Shown here: positions 6,128 to 30,796 of the stretch, piece after piece
Position numbering within the stretch: position 1 is the first letter of the stretch
How the letters are laid out: every line of letters starts with the position of its first letter
Assembly (NCBI GenBank): GCA_027531145.1
Contig: JAPZRF010000034.1
Coordinates: 1-64,000 of the forward strand
Source of the DNA: Brevundimonas sp.
GTDB lineage: Bacteria > Pseudomonadota > Alphaproteobacteria > Caulobacterales > Caulobacteraceae
Length of the DNA: 64,000 bases
Direction: 5' to 3'
Made by a program: the position numbers and the translations under genes
Notes under the pieces: generated by a model
Seen by the model: the letters and a program-made list of their open reading frames with translations, nothing else
Database searches by the model: none
Told to the model about the DNA's origin: nothing

Positions 6128-7111
6128 ATGACCCTGCCCGTGCCCGCCGAATGGGCTCCGCACCGCGCCATGTGGGTCGGCTGGCCCAGCCATGCCGAGC
6201 TGTGGGAGGACGACCTGGACGCGGCCCGGGCCGAGGTCGAGGCGCTGGTGCGCGCCCTGGCCGGCCCCGGACGGGAGCGGGTCAGGCTGATGGTCGGCGC
6301 TCCGGAAGTGCTGGACGCCGCGCGCGCCCGCTTCGCCGGGGTCGAGGGGATCGAAGTGGTCGACGGCCGCTTCGGCGACATCTGGCTGCGCGACACCGGC
6401 CCGATCTTCGGCGCCGGCTCGGCCTCGGCCGCCGGCTTCCGCTTCAATGGCTGGGGCGGCAAGTACGCCCTTGAGCACGACGACACCGTGGCCGATCAGA
6501 TCGCCGCGGCCTCCGGCGTGCCCCTGACCCGCCACGACGTCATCCTCGAGGGCGGGGCGCTGGACCACGACGGGGAGGGGACGGTGCTGACCACGCGCCA
6601 GTGCCTGCTCAACCGCAACCGCAACCCGGGCTGGACCGAGGCGGCGGCCGAGGCGGCGCTGGCGGCGGCGCTGGGCGCGCACCGGGTGGTCTGGCTCGGC
6701 GACGGCCTGCTCAACGACCACACCGACGGCCATGTCGACAACCTGGCCCGCTTCGTCGGGCCGGGGCTGGTAGCCTGTCCGGTGGCCTGGGGGCGCAAGG
6801 ATCCGAACGCCGAGGTCTATGACGCCTGCGCCCGCGACCTGCTTGCGGCGGGCTTCAGGGTGCTGCGCGTGCCCTCGCCGGGTCTGGTGCTGGACGAGGA
6901 CGAGCGGCCGGTTCCCGCCAGCCACATGAACTTCCTGATCGCCAACGGGGGGGTCATCGTGCCGACCTATGGCGACGACCGCGCCGCCGGGCTGGCGGGC
7001 GAGGCGCTGAAGACCGCCTTCCCCGACCGGGAGATCATCCTTCTGCCCTCGCGCGCCATCCTCACGGGCGGCGGCTCCTTCCACTGCATCAGCCAGCAGG
7101 AGCCGGAATGA
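6128..7111 (+). CDS. aguA: Agmatine deiminase
   Basis: PVPAEWAPHRAMWVGWPSH, DIWLRDTGPIF, LNDHTDGHVDNLARF, GGSFHCISQQEP motifs. Confidence 0.93.
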   Translation: MTLPVPAEWAPHRAMWVGWPSHAELWEDDLDAARAEVEALVRALAGPGRERVRLMVGAPEVLDAARARFAGVEGIEVVDGRFGDIWLRDTGPIFGAGSASAAGFRFNGWGGKYALEHDDTVADQIAAASGVPLTRHDVILEGGALDHDGEGTVLTTRQCLLNRNRNPGWTEAAAEAALAAALGAHRVVWLGDGLLNDHTDGHVDNLARFVGPGLVACPVAWGRKDPNAEVYDACARDLLAAGFRVLRVPSPGLVLDEDERPVPASHMNFLIANGGVIVPTYGDDRAAGLAGEALKTAFPDREIILLPSRAILTGGGSFHCISQQEPE

Positions 7112-7513
7112 GTGAAGAGTGCTAGTGAGCAAGGCGTGAGCACGCCAACCAGCCATCGTGATCTCAAGGTCTGGCAGATCGGCGTCGATCTGACGGAGAC
7201 CTTCTATCGGCTGACGGCGACGTGGCCCAAGCACGAGCAATACGGGCTGGTGAACCAGATCAGGCGGGCTGCCGTCTCTGTTCCGGCCAACATCGCGGAG
7301 GGCGCGGGGCGAAGGACGACGGGAGAGTTCCGACATTTCGTCGGCGTAGCGCGCGGCTCGCTGGCGGAACTCGAGACGCTCCTGCTCGTCGCGCACAGGC
7401 TCGGCTACGTCGATCGGCCCACCTACGAGTCCGTCGCGGCCGACCTCTTCGAGTTGGGACGGATGGCGACCGGCCTGCTCAGATCCCTTGGCGATACGCC
7501 GTCCTCAAGCTGA
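7112..7513 (+). CDS. Four-helix-bundle protein (23S rRNA intervening-sequence protein / S23 family)
   Basis: SHRDLKVWQIGVDLTETFYRLTATWPKHEQYGLVNQIRRAAVSVPANIAEGAGR is the family signature; GTG start immediately follows the aguA stop. Confidence 0.9.
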   Translation: MKSASEQGVSTPTSHRDLKVWQIGVDLTETFYRLTATWPKHEQYGLVNQIRRAAVSVPANIAEGAGRRTTGEFRHFVGVARGSLAELETLLLVAHRLGYVDRPTYESVAADLFELGRMATGLLRSLGDTPSSS

Positions 7514-7567
7514 CCTGCTCACTTCTTGCTCACTAGCACTCTGCTCACCAGCACCAGCACTCTTCAC
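7112..7567. mobile_element. Putative S23/four-helix-bundle insertion element with terminal inverted repeats
   Basis: AGAGTGCTAGTGAGCAAG (7116-7133) is perfectly inverted at 7525-7542 (CTTGCTCACTAGCACTCT); outer GTGAAGAGTGCT (7112-7123) is inverted at 7556-7567; it splits aguA and aguB. Confidence 0.6.
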
Positions 7568-7576
7568 CGGACCCCC

Positions 7577-8446
7577 ATGACCCGAACCGTTTCCGTCGCC
7601 GCGATCCAGACCTCCTACGGGGAGGACATGTCGGCGAACATCAGGAAGACCGTCGAACTGATCCGCGAGGCGGCGGCGAAGGGCGCGCAGGTGATCCTGC
7701 CGTCGGAGCTGTTCCAGGGGCCGTACTTCTGCGTCTCGCAGGAGGAAAAGTGGTTCGGCGCAGCCTATCCGTGGGCGGAGCATCCCTGCGTGACCGCCCT
7801 GCAGCCGGTGGCGGCGGAGCTGGGCGTGGCCATCCCCGTATCGATCTTCGAGCGCGAGGGGCCGCACTACTTCAACTCGCTGGTCATGCTGGACGCGGAC
7901 GGCAAGGCGCTGGGCGTCTACCGCAAGAGCCACATTCCCGACGGGCCGGGCTACCAGGAGAAGTACTATTTCCGGCCCGGCGACACCGGCTTCAAGGTCT
8001 GGTCGACCCGGTTCGGGCGGATCGGCGTCGGCATCTGCTGGGACCAGTGGTACCCGGAGACCGCCCGGGCGATGATGCTGCAGGGGGCCGAGGTGCTGAT
8101 GTACCCGACCGCCATCGGCTCCGAGCCCCATGACAAGGAGCTCGACACCGCCGACCCCTGGCGGCGGGCCATGCAGGGGCACGCCGTGTCGAATGTCGTG
8201 CCGGTGGTCGGGGCCAACCGCATCGGCACGGAGCACGCCACGGCGACGGGCCAGACCTTCTACGGCTCCAGCTTCATCGCCGACCACCGCGGCGATCTGG
8301 TCGAGGCGTTCGGGCGCGACGAGGAGGGGGTGCTGGTGCGCACCTTCGATCTCGAGTTCCTGGATCGCCACCGCGCCGCTTGGGGTTTCTTCCGCGACCG
8401 GCGCACGGACCTCTACGGCGCGCTGACCGCCCCGCGCCCGGCCTGA
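7577..8446 (+). CDS. aguB: N-carbamoylputrescine amidase
   Basis: Nitrilase-fold protein; VSVAAIQTSYGEDM, LPSELFQGPYFC, YRKSHIPDGPGYQEKYYFRPGDTG, GVGICWDQWYPE. Confidence 0.93.
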   Translation: MTRTVSVAAIQTSYGEDMSANIRKTVELIREAAAKGAQVILPSELFQGPYFCVSQEEKWFGAAYPWAEHPCVTALQPVAAELGVAIPVSIFEREGPHYFNSLVMLDADGKALGVYRKSHIPDGPGYQEKYYFRPGDTGFKVWSTRFGRIGVGICWDQWYPETARAMMLQGAEVLMYPTAIGSEPHDKELDTADPWRRAMQGHAVSNVVPVVGANRIGTEHATATGQTFYGSSFIADHRGDLVEAFGRDEEGVLVRTFDLEFLDRHRAAWGFFRDRRTDLYGALTAPRPA

Positions 8447-30722: not shown

Positions 30723-30796
30723 GTGAGGCGTGCCAGTGAGCGCAGGGGTGAGCAAGGGTGGGCGATGCTCACCCCTTGCTCACCAGCACATTTCAC
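30723..30796 (-). repeat. ORF-less relative of the 7112-7567 inverted-repeat element
   Basis: Minus strand GTGAAATGTGCTGGTGAGCAAGGGGTGAGCATCGCCCACC...TGCTCACCCCTGCGCTCACTGGCACGCCTCAC matches both ends of the 7112-7567 element; internal 12-bp stem GGTGAGCAAGGG/CCCTTGCTCACC. Confidence 0.65.

Follow-up and report, generated by a model that had tools for sequence, protein, structure and literature searches.

The window, that is, the whole stretch of 64,000 nucleotides of Brevundimonas sp. DNA that was analysed, contains an insert of ~0.45 kb between aguA and aguB, consisting of a single S23/IVP gene between two convergent arrays of ~7-nt units (Table 1). GTGAAGAGTGCTAGTGAGCAAG begins at position 7112, the first base after the aguA stop codon, and the left arm covers the beginning of the S23 reading frame, which has an alternative in-frame start (GTG 7136) and a conserved domain at 7157-7471. 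The right arm carries a partial duplication (7527-7539 and 7542-7554) and ends 9 nt upstream of the aguB ATG; a GGA(G)-containing leader was found at the corresponding spot in other filled sites and probably serves the downstream gene as its ribosome-binding site. The sequence-only reading had described an 18-nt perfect inverted copy and an outer inverted copy enclosing an S23 gene directly behind aguA; its coordinates and sequences, both copies, and the interior gene proved correct, and the inverted repeat is longer than claimed (32 nt).

Table 1. Features of the aguA-aguB insert, its neighbouring genes, and a related gene-less hairpin (window coordinates)
Feature	Position	Strand	Remarks
aguA-like agmatine deiminase gene (PF04371)	6128..7111	+	Upstream neighbour; stop codon TGA
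Left arm, GTG-rich degenerate ~7-nt repeat array (GTGAAGA-GTGCTA-GTGAGCA-AGGCGTGAGCA)	7112..7147	+	
S23/IVP four-helix-bundle gene (PF05635/TIGR02436)	7112..7513	+	133 codons from GTG 7112
Right arm, inner copy	7511..7542	+	Pairs with 7116-7147 (main inverted repeat, 32 nt, 88% complementary), including the perfect 18-nt pair 7116-7133/7525-7542
Right arm, second (outer) partial copy	7542..7567	+	7552-7567 pairs with 7112-7127 (outer inverted pair, 16 nt, 94%)
Short leader CGGACCCCC between right arm and aguB ATG	7568..7576	+	
aguB, N-carbamoylputrescine amidase (TIGR03381 above cut-off)	7577..8446	+	Downstream neighbour; ATG at 7577
Solo hairpin of the window's repeat family, GTGAGGCGTGCCAGTGAGCGCAGGGGTGAGCA ... 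TGCTCACCCCTTGCTCACCAGCACATTTCAC	30723..30796	.	Gene-less

The S23 protein matched PF05635 with an E-value of 3.5e-36 and 124.1 bits (cut-off 33.8) and TIGR02436 with 117.8 bits (cut-off 24), and the aguA-aguB copy is the only PF05635 gene in the 2.85-Mb genome to which the window belongs. Profile searches recognised no transposase or recombinase inside the arms, only S23, and PADLOC returned no match. There was no Rfam match within 6900-7800, and the insert lies between aguA and aguB, not inside 23S rRNA.

A search with the arm 18-mer, allowing up to three mismatches, gave 3 matches in the window against 0.04 expected; thus, the inverted repeat is not a chance occurrence. Extended to the whole genome, as the sequence-only reading had proposed for the termini, the same search showed that the 18-mer recurs (13 occurrences), mostly as gene-less hairpins outside the element, several of them ~70 bp long and frequently located right behind a stop codon. 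The solo hairpin in the window has GTG(C)AGTGAGC-type arms like those of the S23 element and lies 23 kb from it. Across the genus, AGGCAGT showed a mean of 17.3 matches outside elements in genomes with an S23 gene of the same unit versus 1.7 in genomes without (Mann-Whitney p = 6e-9), and AGTGCTAGTGAGCAAG showed 5.8 versus 0.6 (Mann-Whitney p = 2e-7), with both tests counting each genome as an independent observation although the species are related. Exceptions were observed, as some genomes hold solo hairpins without a matching S23 gene; G019, for example, has 16 matches but lacks S23.

PF05635 genes were detected in 68 of the 131 congeneric genomes, with multiple copies in some. We extracted 111 loci and ran arm controls on the 107 with full flanks. 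Terminal inverted repeats were found well beyond the window copy, and nearly all of the loci fetched were bracketed by convergent arrays of ~7-nt units, including AGGCAGT, AGGGATT, GAGTGGC, GTGATTA, GGGTGTG, AGGTTCT, GGGCTTA, GTGCTAGTGAGCA, and others. The two arms of a locus had a mean local inverted-match score of 21.9 (107 loci), compared with 8.4 for right arms swapped from loci of the same genome, 7.5 for shuffled arms, and 7.2 for arms in the same orientation; a score of at least 14 was reached by 92% of own arm pairs versus 4% of same-genome swaps. Since own arms match and same-genome swaps do not, the unit is locus-specific and common to both arms. The S23 gene is under purifying selection, with median dN/dS values of 0.06-0.19 by class (unsaturated pairs only). 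Calling neighbour genes by codon-position GC, which makes the orientation counts approximate, we found the upstream gene to point the same way as S23 at 17 of 23 callable sites, its stop usually lying no more than ~12 nt from the start of the arm; downstream-gene orientation was mixed, and some elements were antisense to their neighbours. Co-transcription is expected where an element lies directly behind the stop of a same-strand gene.

Placing the repeat-unit classes on the S23 protein tree gave 9 changes for 9 states across ~25 genomic sites, after three rare variants had been merged into the nearest class and one armless locus omitted. Class 0 occurred at seven sites, class 1 at seven, and class 2 at five, and mixed sites were also found, with three classes at the aguAB junction and two each at two other sites. 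The unit class tracks the S23 protein clade, not the insertion site, and at one site the unit drifts jointly in both arms (AGGCAGT, AGGCAGC, AGGCAAC). This co-variation is the expectation for a gene and its arms forming one unit; it is not proof of arm binding by the protein. The sequence-only reading had not included these traits of the arms, i.e., tandem ~7-nt units that are locus-specific, matched within the locus, and co-varying with the S23 clade.

Comparison of 126 aguA-aguB junctions within the genus revealed that 28 contained an S23 element, belonging to three repeat classes, and that about 94 had no insert at all. A stop/start overlap (gap of -1 or -4) was found at 90 junctions, 65 of the TGATG/TAATG type and 25 of the ATGA type, and four junctions had gaps of 0-11. 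The remaining category comprised four junctions with an unrelated 367-bp coding insert (VTLFRPVGEAEL...) without S23 (L060, L163, L161, and L165, in genomes G035, G042, G108, and G025). aguB was universal in the genus and S23 patchy; empty junctions at a second S23 site showed a TAATG/TGATG overlap, too. In class-4 (GAGTGGC) elements, the S23 start lies within the aguA stop overlap, aguB has gained a new ATGA start in which S23 stops, and an N-terminal extension of aguB (MTSLATRHSPLATP) is encoded by the right arm. The heptad arm has apparently turned into aguB coding sequence at class-4 loci L002, L004, L005, L007, L009, L010, L014, L075, L085, L101, and L111.

On the aguB tree, aguAB occupancy showed 25 changes, about the random level, with at least 19 forced by well-supported branches. 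Reading these changes as many gains is tempered by the correlation of S23 and aguB divergence within repeat classes (r = 0.63-0.75, Mantel p about 0.001, in the two larger classes): much of the patchiness there may go back to a small number of old insertions, with S23 later lost or replaced when empty alleles recombined in. The tree and the repeat classes hinted at three or more separate insertions at aguAB, but a single origin was not quite rejected (AU p = 0.066). In our reading, a small number of old insertions at aguAB were later lost or exchanged for empty alleles, and newer insertions may have been added; the spread over ~25 sites is firmer evidence of mobility than the patchiness at aguAB. 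The sequence-only reading had offered either a mobile element or an RNA-stem insertion. Because the junction comparison that it called for found empty sites, so that S23 is not a fixed operon member in all relatives, and because inverted repeats were present, not absent, at almost every other four-helix-bundle locus in the genus, the insertion or mobile-element half of that proposal is supported.

Several individual junctions showed further rearrangement-like structures. G121 (L173) lacks S23 and has GGAATGAGTG joined to aguB, with flanks 95-97% identical to those of the S23-filled G079 (L101); this join may be a scar of element loss. The aguA-aguB junction of G091 (L024) holds a 630-bp composite, with GTGATTA-type repeats at the left and GTGCTAGTGAGCA arms, that looks like one element inserted into the remains of another. 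Some elements have a GGAGCCC..ATGA-like stretch at both sides, and a ~13-bp target-site duplication (GGAGCCCGCATGA-like) was considered for G051/G047. As GGA leaders follow the right arm of another class at another site, selection for a ribosome-binding and start sequence explains the stretch equally well, and we do not claim a duplication.

Beyond the genus, we analysed 79 loci from about twenty phyla other than Pseudomonadota (Bacteroidota, Cyanobacteria, Clostridia, Planctomycetes, Acidobacteria, Chloroflexi, Patescibacteria, and others) and 45 loci from Pseudomonadota, with flank windows measured from the end of the S23 domain in both sets. Among the 79 loci, 59 beat 95% of swapped flanks (5% expected) and 48 beat all 100 first-order random controls, with a period of 7 in 41 of the 48; among the 45 Pseudomonadota loci, the corresponding counts were 28 and 24. 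Arms were weak or undetected at 20 of the 79 and 17 of the 45 loci; thus, arms are typical of the S23 family and not universal. Many of the Pseudomonadota failures belonged to an S23 subfamily of the ERLEVW...CRD/CKD type (L378-L386 and L388), which is mostly without detectable arms and may have a different role; no rRNA context was found for the armless S23 genes. All 14 plasmid S23 genes inspected had matching arms, with hosts (Nostoc, Calothrix, Anabaena, Pseudanabaena, Geminocystis, Stanieria, Trichormus, Picosynechococcus, Gemmatirosa, Riemerella, and Azospirillum) that include cyanobacteria, Gemmatimonadota, and Bacteroidota, and the phage records gave no S23 match.

GGGAATC triple repeats were found in 3 of 399 Pseudomonadota genomes, two of which carry S23 between accB and accC. 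These accB-accC elements (L394 and L418) have convergent GGGATTC or GGGAATC arrays, and in one of them the S23 gene is frame-disrupted; they tie the Xanthomonas-type heptads (PMC4692102) to S23 elements. The S23 frame of L394 runs into the right arm. Occupation of accB-accC in two genomes of different families (L418 and L394) suggests another recurrent insertion site. In cyanobacteria, S23 genes with matched arms were found between cas6 and cas4 in Anabaena sp. 90 and Pseudanabaena galeata and between cas10 and cmr3 in Picosynechococcus PCC 7003 (CRISPR loci L230, L232, and L240). A published survey lists the 23S rRNA IVP among CRISPR-linked domains (PMC10910872); given S23 with matched arms inside cas loci, this association may reflect insertion.

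Several known systems share parts of this anatomy. Intervening sequences of 23S rRNA with an S23 ORF, 428-444 nt in length, occur in Coxiella and Leptospira; they have base-paired termini, are cleaved by RNase III, and have long been suspected to be mobile elements (PMC4990558). The present element resembles them in its PF05635 protein, its similar size (~450 nt), and an ORF enclosed by complementary termini, but differs in its position between protein-coding genes, its dispersed gene-less copies, the strong purifying selection on its S23 gene, and perhaps its tandem ~7-nt arms. The link to the rRNA intervening sequence is one of protein family and general anatomy only, and a separate class of element, apart from the S23 intervening sequences, is possible. 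G-rich heptameric tandem repeats are known from Xanthomonas (GGGAATC) and Nostoc (GGGGA(C/T)T) and have been discussed as G-quadruplex formers, in a text that makes no mention of S23 or a helix bundle (PMC4692102). They are likewise intergenic with ~7-nt units, and convergent pairs are frequent in Xanthomonas and usual in the S23 element class, whereas the window's own unit is degenerate and not G4-like. The elements also resemble REPINs, REP palindromes, and MITEs in that short palindromes are dispersed and have the same ends as a copy with a gene, but unlike in REPIN/RAYT systems, S23 is the sole gene, the arms are tandem arrays with a lineage-specific unit, and the window genome has no Y1 transposase. 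The S23 protein family, its rRNA inserts, and heptameric repeats have each been described before; the open-licence PMC text searched contained no statement of heptad arrays bracketing non-rRNA S23 genes or of co-variation between unit and S23.

The RNA-level alternative, in which the insert is the protein-gene counterpart of a 23S rRNA intervening sequence, so that pairing of the arms in the aguA-S23-aguB transcript would let RNase III cut the stem and free the S23 segment, is unlikely in our view but deserves serious weight. The arms are paired in the predicted RNA fold of 7100-7590 (z = -3.85), the elements are mostly in sense orientation behind a same-strand gene, and S23-carrying rRNA inserts with base-paired termini are cut by RNase III (PMC4990558). 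On the other hand, some elements are antisense to their neighbours, and arm mismatches on the sense strand showed 116 G-U versus 102 A-C in the genus and 55 versus 85, an A-C excess, elsewhere (pooled, 171 versus 187, p = 0.43). Without a G-U excess, there is no sign that an RNA stem is under selection, and complementarity looks to be kept at the DNA level. We favour arms that act at the DNA level or stay alike through copying, with which RNA cleavage is compatible. It is improbable that the locus is instead a host regulatory cassette without mobility of its own, in which S23 binds the flanking repeats and controls its operon. Purifying selection on S23, protein-repeat co-variation, and the preferred position between co-transcribed genes would all suit such a cassette, but S23 is patchy while aguB is universal, the neighbour genes at the ~25 sites are unrelated, and a single unit and clade occupies several sites, with multiple copies per genome. 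An ordinary, vertically inherited operon gene with flanking repeats by chance is scarcely credible: the within-class correlation of S23 and aguB divergence agrees with it, but it is refuted by the matched arms at nearly all loci and by the empty aguA-aguB junctions, with the occupancy changes forced on the aguB tree adding to the case.

Among candidate movers, a RAYT/IS200-type Y1 transposase acting on REP-like palindromes, with S23 as a passenger, is very unlikely. The gene-less hairpins are about the size of REP/REPIN elements and are similarly placed; yet Y1 transposases were found in only 4 of the 131 genomes, none of them the window genome, against S23 elements in 68, and the repeat class follows the S23 clade, which largely refutes this mover within the genus. 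By analogy with Avd of diversity-generating retroelements, S23 elements might move through a reverse transcriptase supplied in trans, and we consider this quite improbable. S23 and Avd belong to a homologous fold family, their homology having been stated previously (PMC10053308): S23 scored 22 bits against PF22296 (cut-off 40) and 26 bits against NF033474 (cut-off 80), below the Pfam and NCBIfam cut-offs for Avd, and its sole PHROG match was Avd (PHROG 3206, E = 4.5e-10). The sense-orientation bias of the elements would also agree with retro-mobility, but reverse transcriptase showed no association with S23, RVT_1 being found in 17 of 68 genomes with S23 versus 18 of 63 without.

We consider the aguA-aguB feature to be a copy of a minimal mobile element in which the S23 protein would recognise the element's own arms, a reading to which we assign a probability of roughly 70%; for this recognition, S23 itself would be the best remaining candidate. 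The solved structure of the S23 relative Xcc0516 (2gsc) is an assembly of five four-helix bundles, according to the title of a reference cited in PMC10053308. An S23 multimer may bind the tandem units of its own arms, and S23 on the arms, together with host enzymes, could bring about copying or insertion, including that of gene-less arm pairs in trans. The element would be tolerated at aguA-aguB because the aguA stop codon is preserved and aguB is again provided with a ribosome-binding site and a start. The recurrence of gene plus arms across about twenty phyla suggests that a type of mobile DNA of very small size has been overlooked. More tentatively, and short of what we would call probable, S23 elements may form a distinct class of mobile DNA across these ~20 phyla, of which many heptameric repeats of Xanthomonas, Nostoc, and other genomes would be arms or gene-less derivatives and the rRNA S23 inserts landed copies; in such a class, an S23 multimer without a known catalytic domain would be the sole protein, with recognition via lineage-specific ~7-nt flanking arrays.

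To our knowledge, S23/IVP has been a family without an assigned function since its discovery in rRNA inserts. If the gene and its ~7-nt arrays are one element, the family gains a testable role in binding its own arms, and one class of unexplained heptameric repeats gains a likely origin. S23 genes beside other systems, such as the three cyanobacterial CRISPR loci, could then be re-read as insertions, and the element would be an unusual mobile one, containing nothing recognisable as a transposase, a recombinase, or a reverse transcriptase.
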